Shown here in pieces: positions 476 to 9,598 of a stretch of DNA of 64,000 bases (position 1 is the stretch's first letter; every line of letters begins with the position of its first letter). The position numbers and the translations under genes were made by a program. The notes under the pieces were generated by a model. It had not been told where the DNA came from. It saw only the letters and a list, made by a program, of their open reading frames with translations, and did no database searches. This DNA is from Rikenellaceae bacterium (GTDB taxonomy: Bacteria > Bacteroidota > Bacteroidia > Bacteroidales > Rikenellaceae). The DNA is taken from positions 1 to 64,000 of the forward strand of contig SUZD01000001.1 in assembly GCA_015060105.1 (NCBI GenBank), given 5' to 3'.

Positions 476-3400
476 ATGAAAAAATCACTATTCTTGATGG
501 CAGCTGCCGCATTGGTTATGTCGGCCTGTACACAAGATGTTGCCGAGCAAGACGGTTTTGGTGCTGACTACACCGGAGCTGTTAAGATTAGCGCAACATC
601 GCAAGTGACTCGTACTGCAATCACCGCAGGTGAGGACGCACTTGAAGTTTCTTGGATAGCCGGAGAGGACCAAATCGGTATCTTCGCTTACGACGAGAGC
701 GAACTTGCAACTACAAATGCTGCTTACACCGCAGCAGAGTCGGGTTCGTACTCGACCTTCACCACTACCGGTGATGCTATTCAATGGGGCGAGGGTTCGC
801 ATGATTTCTATGCTTACTACCCCTACACCGGCGACGCTATGCACCAAACTGCTGTTTACGCTAACGTACCCGCAGTTCAAGAGCAAAGCGAGGCAGGTAA
901 CCTTGCACACATCGCACCTCTTGCATTTATGTACGCATCGCAAACCGATGTTGTAAAGAGTGCAGCCGGTGTTGATTTCTCGTTCCAAAATGCATTCTCG
1001 GTTGTAGCTGTTAACCTCTGCTCGGAGGCTGGCACTATCAACTGTGGCGGTGTTATCTTCCGCGCAGCTGAGGAGACTGAGGTTGTTACCGGTACCAACG
1101 TATGCGTTAATTTGACTGACGGTAGCCTCAGCTACGACAGCTCGGAGACTTCGAACCAAGTTCAAGTTAACTTGACAACTCCTGCTACTCTTGATGCAGA
1201 GAACGCACAAACCATTTACGCTTTGATTACTCCCGGTCACGCCGGTAAGACTTTCGAGGCTATCGCATTGGTTGATGGCGTAGAGGTTAGCCTTGGTACA
1301 TTTGCAATTCCCGCAAGCGGTATTCCCGCAAGCGCACTTGCAGTGTTGAATGTTAATGTTCCCGAGCCCCAACCGGTTGATTTGAGCGCAAACGGAACAG
1401 CTAACACCTACATCGTACCTGCACTTGGTAAATACTCGTTCAAAGCTACCGTTAAAGGTAACGGTCGTACAGGCGAGGTTGGTTGCGGTCGTTGGAATGA
1501 GAGTGGCGTTCACACCTTCGTTAATGGCGCTGCTGCTAACAACACTCAAACCAGTGTAGATTTGGCTCCCGCATCGGCTGAGCTTTTGTGGTACCAATCT
1601 TGGAACTCCGGTTACAAACAATATGTAGTTGATTGCCCCATCGATCCCGCATCGGTTGCTTTGGTTGATGGCAACATCGAGTTCAAAACCGCTGCAACTT
1701 TCATCCCCGGTAACGCCGTTATCGCTGCGAAAGATGCTGAGGGTAAGATTATTTGGAGCTGGCACATCTGGGTATCGGAGGGTTATAATCCCGAGGCTAC
1801 CGCTGTAAATACCGGTACTTATGGCCTTATCGCTATGGACCGTAACATCGGTGCTAACATCGCTGACTTCACCAAAACTGATGACGGCTGGGTTGCTGCT
1901 CAAGCAGTAGGTATGTTGTACCAATGGGGTCGTAAAGATCCGTTCCCCGGTCCGCTCGAGATTTCGGACGATACCGCTGATGGTAACCGTGGTGGTGTAG
2001 GTTATGGTGCTATGGCTGCTGACGGTACTTTGATGTACGGTTCGAATGGTCCCGAGGGTTCTGGCGAGGATAGAGGTTACATCGCTATTAAGAATACCGA
2101 ATACTTGCACGGTTTGGTACAAGACGCTGGTCTTTCGGGCGATTGGACTTACACCGAGGCTGTTGCTTATGCTAACGCTAACCCCCATCGTTTGATTCAC
2201 AACCGCGATCGTTCGGGTAACAACTACAACTACGACTGGTGGGGAACTCGTAACGATGCTGCAAAAGCACAAATTCTCTACGTTTGGGGTGCTCCCGGTT
2301 GGAAACAATACACCAAGAACGCACTCAAAACTATCTACGACCCCTGTCCTGCCGGTTGGATCGTTCCTTCGAGCGACTTCGGTAATGTGGCATCGGGTCT
2401 TGAAGGTGAGGCTATGGTACAACGCGAGAACTACGGTTGGTCGATTGTTACCAGCTCGGGTAACAAATTGTACTTCCCCCGTACCGGTGTTCGTTGGGGT
2501 GATGCTACCAACTTCCAAAACTGCAACACCTTGGGTGCTTACTGGACAAGCTTGATGAGTGACTTGCACTGTGCTGCTTACAACTTCGTTGATAAAGATG
2601 GCGCATTTGCCGGTGTATCGCACATCAACGGTAACGATGAGAAGAAAGTTGCTGAGAGCGTAGAGGGTAACTCGGCTCACTCGATGGGTATCTCGACTCG
2701 CGCAATCCGTTGCGTGAAAGAGAGCAACGCATTCGTTCCTTCGGAGCCCGTTGAGCCCGAACCCGAGCCCGAGGTAGTTGATTTGAGCGCAACTGCAACT
2801 TCGAACTGCTACATCGTAAACGCTCCTGCTACCGAGTACAAATTCAAAGCTACTGTAAAAGGTAACGGTTATGCTCCTATGGCTGGTGAGACCGCAGAGA
2901 TCGCTCCTACCAAAGCTCGTATGTTGTGGGCTCAATCGGGTATGACTATGACTGCTGGTGATGGTGACGATGCGTGGCCTTCTGGCTTGGGTGACGCAGG
3001 TGCACTCGATATGATCGACTACACCACCGTTGAGTTGAAAGATGGTTATGTTCACTTCACTACCGGCGAGGAGATGGTTAACGGTAACGCTGTTATCGCT
3101 GTAACCAATGACGAGGGTACTATCCTTTGGAGCTGGCACTTGTGGATGTTGAACGACTACGATCCCGCTGTTGAGGACTACTACGTAACTACCAACAACA
3201 CCAATGTATATATGATGGACCGTAACTTGGGTGCAACTGCTACTCCCAAAAACGGTGTAGACACTAACAACGAGTGGTTGGGCGCACGTGGTTACTACTA
3301 TCAATGGGGCCGTAAAGACCCGTTCGCTTCTCACAACGCTAAATGGAACGGTTACGAGACTAGAATTTACGTTTACGATGAAAATGGTGAGCCTCAAAAG

Positions 3401-4225
3401 TACGATGCAGAGGGTAATCCTTCGGCAGAAGGCGAGGTTGACTGGATTTATGTCAAATATTCGGGCTACACTGCATTCCCCCGCGTTTCTGCAAGCAATA
3501 TTCCCAATGCAGGTGATGTTTATGCAAGCGTAGCATACGCTGTGGCTAACCCGATGACCTACCTCACTGGTGGCGCAAGCTATATGTGGACTGCTGGTAC
3601 CGACGAGCATATCGTAAGTGGTGCTACTAACGAGTGGGGTAAACTCTGGGGTAACCAAAAAGAGGGTTACTCGCGTTGGGACAAAGAGGGTGTTAAGACT
3701 ATGTATGACCCCTGCCCCGCAGGTTACCGCGTTCCCGGTCCCGGTCACTTCGCATTCGTTACTGCACACAACGATGATGCAGGTGCTGGTTACAACTCGA
3801 TGGCTGCTTGGAAATACAACTGCGTAGAGAAACTCTTCGACGAGGCTGGTAACAAGAACTATCCTGACGGTATGTGTCAAGGTAATGCTCCCTACGGTCT
3901 CCACTTCTATGTTAAGGGCTCGAAAACTGCTGATCCTAACGTAGCAGAAGGTGCTCAAAACTATGGTGTAGCTCCTGAGGATGCAACTACCGCATACTTC
4001 CCCGCACAAGGCTTCTTCAACTGGTCGGCTAGCGAGAGAACTGCTAACGGCGAGAGCCCCAACATTTACGCACACACCAACGCAGTTAAGAATGCTAGTT
4101 GGTATGGTTACTCGACCTACTTCTTGCAAGCAGAGGCTCAAGGTGAGTTCTTCACTTGCTCTGGTTCGGTCAGCTATGGTGAGCAACAAGCTAAGGCAAT
4201 GCCTGTTCGTTGCTTCCGTGAGTAA
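476..4225 (+). CDS. Fimbrillin-like lipoprotein with two tandem FISUMP modules
   Basis: This is a 1249-aa exported lipoprotein. The N-terminus is a lipoprotein signal peptide with lipobox VMSAC, Cys at residue 18. Residues about 35-295 resemble the fimbrillin-like N-terminal domain of Bacteroidales surface lipoproteins (TRTAI near the start, then a beta-rich domain). Two homologous modules follow, about 300-755 and 770-1249, separated by Pro/Glu linkers. Each opens with VDLSA, then KATVKGNG, a WSWH-W motif, MDRN-GA, YQWGRKDPF and YDPCPAG. That set is the Fibrobacter succinogenes major paralogous (FISUMP) domain signature. The function of FISUMP is unknown; surface anchoring or adhesion is inferred. 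The gene follows the repeat protein after 25 bases and ends at a strong terminator. Codon use is extreme: TTA, CTA and TCA appear to be absent, as in fusA, suggesting high expression. Confidence 0.85.
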   Translation: MKKSLFLMAAAALVMSACTQDVAEQDGFGADYTGAVKISATSQVTRTAITAGEDALEVSWIAGEDQIGIFAYDESELATTNAAYTAAESGSYSTFTTTGDAIQWGEGSHDFYAYYPYTGDAMHQTAVYANVPAVQEQSEAGNLAHIAPLAFMYASQTDVVKSAAGVDFSFQNAFSVVAVNLCSEAGTINCGGVIFRAAEETEVVTGTNVCVNLTDGSLSYDSSETSNQVQVNLTTPATLDAENAQTIYALITPGHAGKTFEAIALVDGVEVSLGTFAIPASGIPASALAVLNVNVPEPQPVDLSANGTANTYIVPALGKYSFKATVKGNGRTGEVGCGRWNESGVHTFVNGAAANNTQTSVDLAPASAELLWYQSWNSGYKQYVVDCPIDPASVALVDGNIEFKTAATFIPGNAVIAAKDAEGKIIWSWHIWVSEGYNPEATAVNTGTYGLIAMDRNIGANIADFTKTDDGWVAAQAVGMLYQWGRKDPFPGPLEISDDTADGNRGGVGYGAMAADGTLMYGSNGPEGSGEDRGYIAIKNTEYLHGLVQDAGLSGDWTYTEAVAYANANPHRLIHNRDRSGNNYNYDWWGTRNDAAKAQILYVWGAPGWKQYTKNALKTIYDPCPAGWIVPSSDFGNVASGLEGEAMVQRENYGWSIVTSSGNKLYFPRTGVRWGDATNFQNCNTLGAYWTSLMSDLHCAAYNFVDKDGAFAGVSHINGNDEKKVAESVEGNSAHSMGISTRAIRCVKESNAFVPSEPVEPEPEPEVVDLSATATSNCYIVNAPATEYKFKATVKGNGYAPMAGETAEIAPTKARMLWAQSGMTMTAGDGDDAWPSGLGDAGALDMIDYTTVELKDGYVHFTTGEEMVNGNAVIAVTNDEGTILWSWHLWMLNDYDPAVEDYYVTTNNTNVYMMDRNLGATATPKNGVDTNNEWLGARGYYYQWGRKDPFASHNAKWNGYETRIYVYDENGEPQKYDAEGNPSAEGEVDWIYVKYSGYTAFPRVSASNIPNAGDVYASVAYAVANPMTYLTGGASYMWTAGTDEHIVSGATNEWGKLWGNQKEGYSRWDKEGVKTMYDPCPAGYRVPGPGHFAFVTAHNDDAGAGYNSMAAWKYNCVEKLFDEAGNKNYPDGMCQGNAPYGLHFYVKGSKTADPNVAEGAQNYGVAPEDATTAYFPAQGFFNWSASERTANGESPNIYAHTNAVKNASWYGYSTYFLQAEAQGEFFTCSGSVSYGEQQAKAMPVRCFRE

Positions 4226-6779: not shown

Positions 6780-6812
6780 GCCCCACAAGAAAAAAAACTT
6801 GTGGGGCTTTTT
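6780..6812 (+). terminator. Terminator after the TonB receptor
   Basis: A perfect 10-bp stem GCCCCACAAG/CTTGTGGGGC with an 8-base A-rich loop is followed by TTTTT. Confidence 0.9.
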
Positions 6813-6825
6813 GTGTGCTAAATGG

Positions 6826-6856
6826 TTGCAGAACATACAAATAATAAGTATTTTTG
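6826..6856 (+). promoter_or_regulatory. Promoter of the small-protein/fimbrillin operon
   Basis: TTG at 6826-6828, a 20-base spacer and TATTTTTG at 6849-6856 fit the Bacteroidota consensus. Transcription should begin near 6862, giving a leader of about 80 bases before ATG 6945. That leader holds two perfect palindromes. Confidence 0.75.
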
Positions 6857-6871
6857 TGGCTTATGAGAACA

Positions 6872-6907
6872 AAAAGCAGATATATCTGCTTTTCACTTAT
6901 ATAAGTG
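6872..6907 (+). promoter_or_regulatory. Two adjacent perfect palindromes in the operon leader
   Basis: A 22-bp perfect palindrome, AAAAGCAGATATATCTGCTTTT (6872-6893), is directly followed by a 14-bp perfect palindrome, CACTTATATAAGTG (6894-6907). Both lie just downstream of the predicted transcription start. They could be an operator for a dimeric regulator, an attenuator hairpin (the first ends in TTTT) or a stability element. The sequence alone does not decide. Confidence 0.6.
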
Positions 6908-6944
6908 AGGAAAAATGCAACAAAAACTATAAAAAAAACACACA

Positions 6945-7103
6945 ATGAAAACGACACACAACTCACTCTACACTGCACCCGAGGTGCAAGTTGTAGAACT
7001 CTGCGTAGAGCAAGGCTTTGCCCTGTCGCCCTATGTGGACGAGGAGCCCGGAAAAACAGGCAACCTCATTTATGACCAATCAACCAATGACTTTGACCTT
7101 TAA
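6945..7103 (+). CDS. 52-aa small protein of the PEV...VEQGFA type, upstream of fimbrillin
   Basis: This ORF is too short for the ORF track. It reads ATG at 6945 to TAA at 7101-7103. It has no signal peptide, membrane segment or known domain. Its core is APEVQVVELCVEQGFALSP, followed by an acidic tail. From memory, unannotated Bacteroidales ORFs of about 50 aa with a P-E-V/L...VE-GFA core often sit next to fimbrillin-like or other surface-lipoprotein genes; I know of no assigned function. It follows a consensus promoter and ends 13 bases before the lipoprotein ATG at 7117, so it is the first gene of that operon. A role in regulating, coupling or partnering with the downstream product is only a guess. 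Reality of the gene is supported by the promoter, spacing and the recognisable core. Confidence 0.7.
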   Translation: MKTTHNSLYTAPEVQVVELCVEQGFALSPYVDEEPGKTGNLIYDQSTNDFDL

Positions 7104-7116
7104 TCGACACAGCGCT

Positions 7117-9531
7117 ATGAGAACAAAATTTGGATTGGCAGCCCTGTTTGCTGCTGTTTTGGGTTTCGTTGGTTGCTCGAATGTTGATGAGCAAGGCGGA
7201 ACAAACAACGACACTCCCGCACCTGCGGAGTATCAACTCACAATTAACGCTACCGCTCACGAGCCCGCAACTCGCGTGGTTATCAGTGGCGACAAAACCA
7301 ATGGTTTCGAAACCTCGTGGGAGGTGGGCGACCAAATCGGAGTATTTACCTATACCGAAGCTGCTTCGCAGAGATCAGAATGTAGTTGTAACTTTCCTTT
7401 GGAAAATACAATAGTCAATAGCGATGGTACCACTGTTTTTAGCGGTACTCTTCCTAGTGGACTTTATGCAGGCGTACACGATTTGTATGTTTACTACCCC
7501 TACAAATCGAGCCTCGCAGATAAAAACCACTACGAAAATTCGACCACAACTTTCGAAGATGTAAAGTGTCAAATCCCCGCCGAGCAGGCAATGACCGAGA
7601 GTGGCTCGTACGACCCTACGGCTGCATATATGGTTGCTCGCCCCTCGACTATCGACCTGTCGGAGAGCAAGGCCGTTGAGACCACAATGACCTTCCGTCA
7701 CTTGAACTGCTTTGTAAACCTCTCAACCAAGAGCGTTACTGCCGATGGCGTAAGTGGCGACGAGGTGGTTAATAGTATTGCTATGACCGTTGCGGGCAAG
7801 ACCCTCGCAGGCGATTTCGAGTTGAACTTGGCTGATGGCTCGACCAACTTCACATCGACCAGCGAGACTATTACTGTTGCTGTTCCCGATGGTACTACCT
7901 TGGCCGACCTTTCGGCGTGGTTGGTTGTAAACCCCTTCTCGTTGGCGAGCGGCGACGAATTGGAGCTCGTTATCACCACCGACAAGAACATTATCACCAA
8001 AACCATTACAGGCAAAACCATCAATTTTGCTATCAAGAATGTAATCACTCTCAACCTCGCAATCGACAACACTTGCACCGTTGAGCCCTTTACCGCATCG
8101 AACCTCTTCGCTGATGGTACATATGTAATTGCTGATGATACCAACAAAAAATTGATGATTCCTGGCCCTGAAAGTGACGACTTCCGTGGTTATGCAAACT
8201 ACACAACCATTCCCGCTACCGTTTCGGCAGAGCAAGCTTGGATTCTCACTTCGGTTGGTAATCCGGGTGAAAACCTCTATACTATTCAATCGGCCGAGAG
8301 CAACAAATACCTATCATACAATAATAGTAGTACAGGTACAAAGAATAACTATGCTCAACTTAATGATGAATACGACTCTGATAAATCAGACATGCTGATT
8401 ACTGCTACAGAAGATGGAAAAGGTTACCAAATTAAATGGAATACGAATCAACAGCGTATACTTGGATACAACAGCAACAGTCCTCGTTTTGCGTTCTATC
8501 TTGGAACTCAACAAAACGTTTTGACACTTGTTCCCGTAGAGGTTGCAACAACCATTTCGGTAACTTCGGCTAATGAGATTACCACTAATCCTGCTGCAAC
8601 TGATGGCACTATCAGTTATTCGTTAATTTATGGCGAGGACGGAGCAAAAGTTTCGGCTACTTCGAGCGCATCGTGGCTGACCGTTGGAGAGATTACATCG
8701 ACAAGCGTTGCATACTCGATTGCTGCAAACACCGATGCAGCGCGCACAGCTACTATCACACTCTCGTACGAGGGTGCTGAAGATGTTACAATTAGCGTAA
8801 CTCAAAAAGCACAAAGTTTGACCATTACCTCAGCTACTGACGTCAATGTTGCAGCCGAAGCAAACTCTACTCTATCGGTTGCCTACACACTTGTAGCCGC
8901 AGATGATGACGCTGCTATTACCGCGGAGTCGAGTGCCACTTGGCTGACTATTGGCAACATTACATCGACAAGTGTTGCTTATAGCGTGAGCGAGAACACA
9001 TCGACCGAGGAGCGTACTGCAACCATTACCCTTGCATACGGAACTCTTACCCAAGAGGTAACCGTAAATCAAAGTGGTGTTGGTAGCGCAACTGAATATA
9101 CCGTTGTCTATACACCTTCTTCAAAAACAGCAATATCTGTTACTAGCGGAACCGCTCCTGACGGTTCTTCCGTTACATACAACAATACCTATGCTACAAA
9201 TCAAATAACAGGAGGCAAATCGGCTACTTTGACTTTGAGTGGTTATGATGGTGCAAAGATTACAGGAGTAACGCTACATATGAGATCCTCTAACAGAGGT
9301 AATGGAGCAGGTCTTTTGGATATGACTGTTGGTACTACGAATATTGCACATATTGCCGATAGCACTTTTAAGGATTGGACTAATAATGACAGTATTGGTA
9401 CTGCTGAAACAGATGTAACACTCGCAGTAGATCCGACCGTAGTCGGAACTGATCAAGATGTGAAAATCATCATCAATGCAAGCGTTTCTTCGCTTTACAT
9501 CTTCTCGTACACTATCACTTACGAGATGTAA
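7117..9531 (+). CDS. Fimbrillin-like lipoprotein with two BACON domains
   Basis: This is an 804-aa exported lipoprotein. The ATG at 7117 was chosen because it gives a lipoprotein signal peptide with lipobox GFVGC (Cys 20) and lies just after the small ORF; the track start at 7018 lies inside that small ORF. Residues about 35-330 form a fimbrillin-like region (TRVVISG, WEVGDQIGVF, YVYYPY). A middle domain of about 330-475 follows. Two tandem BACON-type Ig-like domains sit at about 479-565 and 569-655, recognisable by paired SSASWLTVGEITST and SSATWLTIGNITST blocks. The last 145 residues are a separate beta-rich module. BACON domains are usually linked to carbohydrate or mucin binding in gut Bacteroidales, so adhesion is inferred. 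There is no enzymatic domain. Confidence 0.85.
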   Translation: MRTKFGLAALFAAVLGFVGCSNVDEQGGTNNDTPAPAEYQLTINATAHEPATRVVISGDKTNGFETSWEVGDQIGVFTYTEAASQRSECSCNFPLENTIVNSDGTTVFSGTLPSGLYAGVHDLYVYYPYKSSLADKNHYENSTTTFEDVKCQIPAEQAMTESGSYDPTAAYMVARPSTIDLSESKAVETTMTFRHLNCFVNLSTKSVTADGVSGDEVVNSIAMTVAGKTLAGDFELNLADGSTNFTSTSETITVAVPDGTTLADLSAWLVVNPFSLASGDELELVITTDKNIITKTITGKTINFAIKNVITLNLAIDNTCTVEPFTASNLFADGTYVIADDTNKKLMIPGPESDDFRGYANYTTIPATVSAEQAWILTSVGNPGENLYTIQSAESNKYLSYNNSSTGTKNNYAQLNDEYDSDKSDMLITATEDGKGYQIKWNTNQQRILGYNSNSPRFAFYLGTQQNVLTLVPVEVATTISVTSANEITTNPAATDGTISYSLIYGEDGAKVSATSSASWLTVGEITSTSVAYSIAANTDAARTATITLSYEGAEDVTISVTQKAQSLTITSATDVNVAAEANSTLSVAYTLVAADDDAAITAESSATWLTIGNITSTSVAYSVSENTSTEERTATITLAYGTLTQEVTVNQSGVGSATEYTVVYTPSSKTAISVTSGTAPDGSSVTYNNTYATNQITGGKSATLTLSGYDGAKITGVTLHMRSSNRGNGAGLLDMTVGTTNIAHIADSTFKDWTNNDSIGTAETDVTLAVDPTVVGTDQDVKIIINASVSSLYIFSYTITYEM

Positions 9532-9554
9532 TAGCGAATATTCTAACAAGAAAA

Positions 9555-9581
9555 GGCTGTCCCTCGGGACAGCCTTTTTTT
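9555..9581 (+). terminator. Terminator between convergent fimbrillin and barrel genes
   Basis: A perfect 9-bp stem GGCTGTCCC/GGGACAGCC with a 2-base TC centre is followed by seven T. AAAA on the 5' side means it may also work for the minus-strand gene that ends at 9599. Confidence 0.9.
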
Positions 9582-9598
9582 ATTAGAACATATAGCAA

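Follow-up and report, generated by a model that had tools for sequence, protein, structure and literature searches.

The 52-aa open reading frame at positions 6945–7103 on the forward strand of the window, i.e. the whole 64,000-nt stretch of Rikenellaceae DNA analysed here, is very probably a precursor gene for a linear, LPP-like RiPP; the precursor would be served by an RRE, a kinase, a protease and an exporter encoded elsewhere. The LPP system (lppA K B S D N; Popov et al. 2026, PMC13381572) is defined by a YxxP precursor together with an SpI-like protease, a discrete RRE, an HprK-like kinase, an NTP transferase and an MsbA-like transporter. The gene and its surroundings are arranged in the window as follows.

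About 6780–6813, + strand: terminator-like hairpin and T run of the preceding TonB-dependent receptor gene, GCCCCACAAG-A8-CTTGTGGGGC-TTTTT (direct reading).
6826–6856, + strand: Bacteroidota-type promoter, TTG (6826)-N20-TATTTTTG (6849–6856) (pattern scan).
6873–6908, + strand: two back-to-back hairpins in the presumed 5′ UTR (fold z-score −4.2).
6945–7103, + strand: precursor peptide gene, 52 aa (translation plus family comparison).
7117–9531, + strand: partner lipoprotein, 804 aa, with lipobox, Mfa_like_1 N-terminal region, lectin-like region and BACON domain (domain matches).
About 9552–9583, + strand: terminator-like hairpin and T run closing the two-gene unit, AAAAGGCTGTCCCTCGGGACAGCCTTTTTTT.

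The ORF, whose translation is MKTTHNSLYTAPEVQVVELCVEQGFALSPYVDEEPGKTGNLIYDQSTNDFDL*, is a genuine gene, found exactly where an earlier note on this DNA had placed an unannotated 52-aa protein, and its frame is conserved as protein. The consensus promoter claimed upstream was recovered; Markov shuffles put the probability of finding one by chance within the 187-nt intergenic region at ~1%. As read from the letters, the hairpin at about 6780–6813 separates the TonB-dependent receptor gene from the small ORF/lipoprotein operon. The lipoprotein ATG lies at 7117, so the 13-nt spacing also holds, and the apparent transcript terminates at the hairpin around 9552–9583. As the lipoprotein matches both BACON and Mfa_like_1 (the latter at 46 bits as a translated genome match), the description of the small ORF as the first gene of a fimbrillin operon is fair in the sense of 'fimbrillin-like', with an apparent operon of two genes only, 6945–7103 and 7117–9531.

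The two hairpins at 6873–6908 are both perfect and have unlike sequences; such a pair is also found upstream of the precursor at the loci L004, L005 and L020, and it is confined to this genome and a genus relative. The two-hairpin 5′ UTR was rejected as a family feature, being absent from most of the family though present here and before some relatives of the genus. At L041, L060 and L025 (both copies), the 180 nt upstream of the precursor contain a common 5′ segment of loose similarity, with GTGTGGGG..CCACAC complementarity, that matched no Rfam family. The Rfam search of the window returned no element, the sole match being a tRNA in L025.

We searched 150 genomes of the same GTDB family (Rikenellaceae) with a 28-sequence profile and detected the small ORF in 81 of them, at up to 13 copies each. 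Five further copies are present in the same 1.68-Mb genome (six in total); they share MK..Y..P.vEvvel.vE.Gf..S, and the six tails are acidic and often aromatic. The family loci in a named collection belong to Alistipes, other Rikenellaceae or unclassified Bacteroidales. Neither Pfam nor NCBIfam gave a match to the 52-aa protein or a model matching the family above cut-off, and a PDB search gave no convincing relative of the protein. The idea of a conserved family near surface-protein genes was nevertheless correct: 124 distinct relatives keep the reading frame, and the family is physically tied to surface lipoprotein genes. Its members consist of a conserved leader, YxxPxvEvvEvxVExGF followed by AxS, and a hypervariable acidic tail. 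The 'core' PEVQVVELCVEQGFALSP named in the earlier note is really this conserved leader, and the stretch past AxS is hypervariable.

The Y and P of the YxxP motif are invariant, and the block, counted from Y through the closing S/T, spans 20 residues in 119 of the 124 members. The core opens with A in 101 members. Because the pattern used to collect members fixed G and limited the choices at F and E, the conservation of these residues is partly by construction; positions +1 and +2 were free, and A was allowed at +3 and never occurred there. The suggested comparison of synonymous and non-synonymous change gave a leader pN/pS of ~0.3–0.4, and codons vary synonymously at the invariant residues. 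These results indicate selection on the peptide, of the purifying kind in the leader. Alignment with LppA divides the precursor as follows.

6945–7019, + strand: predicted leader M1–F25 (conserved block up to GF, alignment with LppA).
6969–6980, + strand: YTAP, the YxxP motif and predicted RRE-binding site of the leader (invariant Y and P; discrete-RRE motif in PMC13381572).
7020–7100, + strand: predicted core peptide A26–L52 (ALSPYVDEEPGKTGNLIYDQSTNDFDL) (alignment with LppA).

LppA has T-1 as its last leader residue and a core that starts with A-Q-S and is polyphosphorylated at S3 (PMC13381572). S28 is the predicted phosphosite by homology to LppA S3, with S or T there in 124/124 members. 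The 10 members that carry T, as against 114 with S, speak against an LPP-like reading, as LppA S3T is not phosphorylated (PMC13381572). The structure predicted for the precursor alone is an extended segment, confident around residues 11–20 and low elsewhere, as expected for a strand that would fold on its partner.

Candidate partners are encoded in the same genome. The RRE, ABC transporter, kinase and protease genes form one run located 123 kb from 6945–7103 on the same contig.

Contig 12, 130177–130446: discrete PqqD-like RRE, 89 aa (PF05402 above cut-off).
130452–132110: MsbA-like ABC transporter, 552 aa, adjoining the RRE (best model MsbA).
132117–132992: HprK-like kinase (motifs, weak model matches, gene order).
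About 132982–133401: archaeal-type signal-peptidase-like Ser-His-Asp protease (TIGR02228, E 5e-8, below cut-off).
Contig 20, unlinked: NTP transferase (PF14907, E 1.8e-44).

The NTP transferase gene lies beside the RRE gene in other genomes and is present in 71 of the 81 genomes with an RRE. The AlphaFold2 model of the RRE (pLDDT 92) has a small fold of three strands and three helices, and its best Foldseek matches are lasso RRE-leader complexes. In PDB, the RRE profile matched TfuB1 (6JX3, a lasso RRE; E 3.4e-9) and 9X8Z (E 0.005), the latter of which is the LppB-LppA complex (PMC13381572). Residues N35 and D73, invariant in ten sequences, align with LppB N33 and D70 if the numbering of the PDB chain is taken to be offset by 18 residues. 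LppB N33 and D70 fix the leader proline and tyrosine (PMC13381572). The protease has invariant S34, H73 and D88, and the catalytic residues of LppS are S29/H68/D93 (PMC13381572). A premature stop in the protease of this genome was considered and rejected, as the stop is natural and the gene intact. The kinase is designated HprK-like on the basis of an invariant P-loop GxSGTGKST and LLNDD motif, gene order and weak model matches (TIGR04352 HprK-related, E 0.0017, far below the curated cut-off).

Given an RRE closest to lasso B1 proteins, a YxxP leader and weak matches to the paeninodin precursor model from 6 of 67 members, the small ORF might instead encode a lasso peptide precursor with a macrolactam ring. 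This is exceedingly unlikely: the lasso leader protease B2 (PF13471) was found in 0/150 genomes with a positive control, the loci read or scanned around the RRE held no gene recognised as a macrolactam synthetase or lasso cyclase, and the conserved penultimate Thr is missing from the leader.

By homology with LPP, the linear precursor would be processed in the following manner. The YxxP leader strand would be bound by the discrete PqqD-like RRE, the HprK-like kinase would phosphorylate the conserved Ser/Thr at core position 3 (S28), and the signal-peptidase-like protease would remove the leader before A26. The NTP transferase may attach a further group, and the MsbA-like transporter would export the acidic 27-residue peptide. 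A single machine would serve at least six precursors scattered over the genome; most of these appear to share a transcript with a surface lipoprotein of their own.

The distribution of the small ORF follows that of the machinery. Each of the small ORF and the RRE is found in 81 of the 150 genomes, with 77 in common (p=2.5e-32, a value that ignores relatedness in a sample dominated by two genera, as do all co-occurrence p-values here). The RRE and kinase share 79 genomes (RRE-only 2, kinase-only 0), and the kinase and protease co-occur almost perfectly with the small ORF across the 150 genomes, the NTP transferase less strictly. Several of the genomes that break the match between small ORF and RRE are only 54–69% complete: three of the four on the RRE side, namely G024, G074 and G096, and, on the ORF side, G055 and G126. 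At the order level, co-occurrence of the small ORF with the kinase holds but is weaker (7/10, or 4/7 without its own family). Physical linkage was observed in three genomes. In G168, which belongs to another Bacteroidales family, the precursor (MKKLYTSPEIEVVEVIEYGFAASEPLGRSKVSQSFEEEEF), kinase, protease, RRE and NTP transferase genes follow one another on one strand, with 38 nt between precursor and kinase. In G140, the precursor and its lipoprotein diverge from the RRE-ABC-kinase-protease run at a distance of 188 nt, and in G012 a precursor-lipoprotein pair converges on the machinery.

Eight other-family Bacteroidales genomes (G204, G227, G326, G330, G377, G392, G405 and G424) have a strong kinase match, and at their loci L196, L198 and L200–L203 the protease, RRE and/or NTP transferase lie beside the kinase. 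The family profile detected no precursor in these eight genomes, which probably hold diverged precursors and further variants.

These data bear on two other readings. If the family were real but its YxxP motif coincidental, the co-occurrence with the RRE system could merely mirror the genome tree, and the dominance of two genera together with p-values that assume independence would allow this. We regard it as highly improbable, however, since presence and absence coincide within the genus of the window, where all parts occur in the same 4 of 11 genomes, and across several genera, the genes are directly adjacent in three genomes, and the RRE residues assigned to Y and P do not vary. The second reading is a cis-acting leader peptide, in which translation or stalling on the small ORF tunes how the lipoprotein 13 nt downstream is translated, by attenuation or coupling, and the peptide has no further fate. 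The ORF is short, the gap is short, one gene nearly always follows, and two 5′ UTR hairpins are present here; but the hairpins are no family feature, and such a mechanism does not explain why RRE, kinase and protease are inherited along with the ORF, why the leader has a YxxP motif of the RRE type, why a precursor stands ahead of the kinase in G168 or why tails are alike between orthologous loci. It is quite improbable.

As a predicted precursor of an LPP-like peptide, the small ORF is unusual in its neighbor. Sufficient downstream sequence was available for 118 members, and 106 of these lie just ahead of a lipoprotein gene (104 identified with an automatic rule requiring a same-strand lipobox protein downstream and two by eye), at a median gap of 27 nt. 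The same lipobox rule was satisfied by 17% of ordinary genes and 12.5% of random small ORFs from the nearby loci and the window. The partners are diverse surface proteins, with Mfa_like_1 in 13, BspA-type LRR in 10, CBM26 in 4 and BACON in 2 of 65. In this genome, several further fimbrillin-like genes lack such a small ORF in front, and one member (L002) has no lipoprotein after it. At L082:2429-2695, two unlike precursors with the tails LPDAGDFEGTTPETGN and GNSTEDWNEDDDPIEIG stand in tandem before a single lipoprotein. A further candidate pair enters the window from the contig start.

1–450, + strand: probable second precursor, leader lost at the contig start; core = (DTDKPNDGEGGGNEGG)n ..EKWEGW.. 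(frame read).
476–4225, + strand: fimbrillin-like lipoprotein (Mfa_like_1) after the truncated precursor (domain matches).

The open frame 1–450 contains at least seven repeats of DTDKPNDGEGGGNEGG, has the end ..EKWEGW.. and stops 25 nt before the lipoprotein. It is probably a precursor whose core has been expanded into a repeat; as its leader is cut off, family membership is assigned from the position and the acidic tail.

Tail similarity tracks the similarity of the cognate lipoproteins (0.44 vs 0.06), and where leaders are nearly equal but the lipoproteins differ, the tails are dissimilar (mean 0.21). A partial rank correlation of 0.15 lies above all 500 permutations, and joint descent may account for part of this tracking. 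Three recent duplicates in G117 are near-identical in DNA from ~100 nt upstream to the GFAAS codons, after which the tails differ, and near-identity resumes over the lipoprotein signal peptide. In G009, two contigs have a common last 127 nt starting at the G codon of GF, with different leaders preceding it. Since 127 is a common assembler word length, this stretch marks a repeat boundary. Two different leaders continue into the same core and the same beginning of the downstream gene, a pattern that suggests recombination or duplication at the leader-core junction. Assembly breaks at or near this junction were seen at the ends of G009 contigs 18 and 17 (L099 and L100) and of G000 contig 3 (L087).

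One-to-one pairing, tails that track the lipoprotein and the lack of a signal peptide on the small protein would also suit a cytosolic chaperone or targeting factor, whose leader binds a common export factor and whose tail binds the nascent chain. The co-inherited RRE better explains the partner of the leader, and some precursors lie beside the machinery with no lipoprotein after them, which makes such a factor very unlikely. The role in expression or assembly of the downstream surface protein proposed in the earlier note was not borne out; the evidence favors a RiPP-type precursor with its machinery elsewhere, and the small ORF is probably not an expression or assembly factor. A signalling role for the mature peptide is possible. 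The pairing with surface adhesin-like genes hints at the purpose of the peptides. Because the precursors are, for the most part, apparently co-transcribed with their own lipoprotein, we hypothesize that the mature peptide acts with that lipoprotein in the envelope, perhaps as a ligand, cap or surface tag. More specifically, and only tentatively, one RiPP machine might make a private phosphorylated acidic peptide for each of several surface adhesin-like lipoproteins, and the peptide would stay with its lipoprotein in one of these capacities. If so, RiPP products would decorate or gate adhesins and would be diversified module by module at the leader-core junction.

The LPP-like reading explains a large anonymous family of small ORFs. 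Its precursors can lie far from their machinery, and cluster-based RiPP mining would overlook them. A 2023 survey of Bacteroidales RiPP clusters, and thus of the same order, gives 10 clusters in Rikenellaceae (PMC10352776), and the passages of that survey consulted here make no mention of a kinase/SpI class, Alistipes or fimbrillin. Our literature search, in which subscription papers and preprints were sparsely covered, found no paper on a Bacteroidota LPP system or on the small-ORF family.

Paeninodin-like lasso peptides resemble the Rikenellaceae system in their [Y/W]xxP leader, discrete RRE, NTP transferase and, at the level of motifs, HprK-like kinase, but here the motif has Tyr and not Trp, the B2 protease is missing from all 150 genomes, and no ring is expected. 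LPP and paeninodins were stated to be restricted to Bacillota, and LPP to have no known biological role (PMC13381572). With LPP, the Rikenellaceae system shares the archaeal-type SpI-like protease, the discrete PqqD-type RRE, the MsbA-like exporter and the NTP transferase. The LPP kinase is HprK-like; the one here is a candidate counterpart, with invariant motifs and a weak match to TIGR04352. The precursor has the YxxP N-terminal leader, highly variable C-terminus and A-x-S core start of LPP. In contrast, the full LPP leader consensus YxxPxVLxHQxIxFETxxS agrees only at YxxPx[V] and the final AxS; EVxVExGF replaces HQxIxFET, and the block is 20 rather than 19 residues long. LPP precursors lie within the biosynthetic cluster, an arrangement seen in G168 and approached by the adjacent genes of G140 and G012, whereas those of Rikenellaceae are mostly dispersed, number up to 13 per genome and are paired with surface lipoproteins in a Bacteroidota host. 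No capsule locus was noticed around the machinery of this genome, which is a further difference from LPP. A second phylum for an LPP-like system, with nearly all precursors paired with a lipoprotein, offers a concrete and testable clue to function. As the parts are the same as in LPP but the leader consensus, phylum and layout are different, the Rikenellaceae system, likened to LPP by gene set and motifs, is an LPP-like variant and not a plain LPP member.
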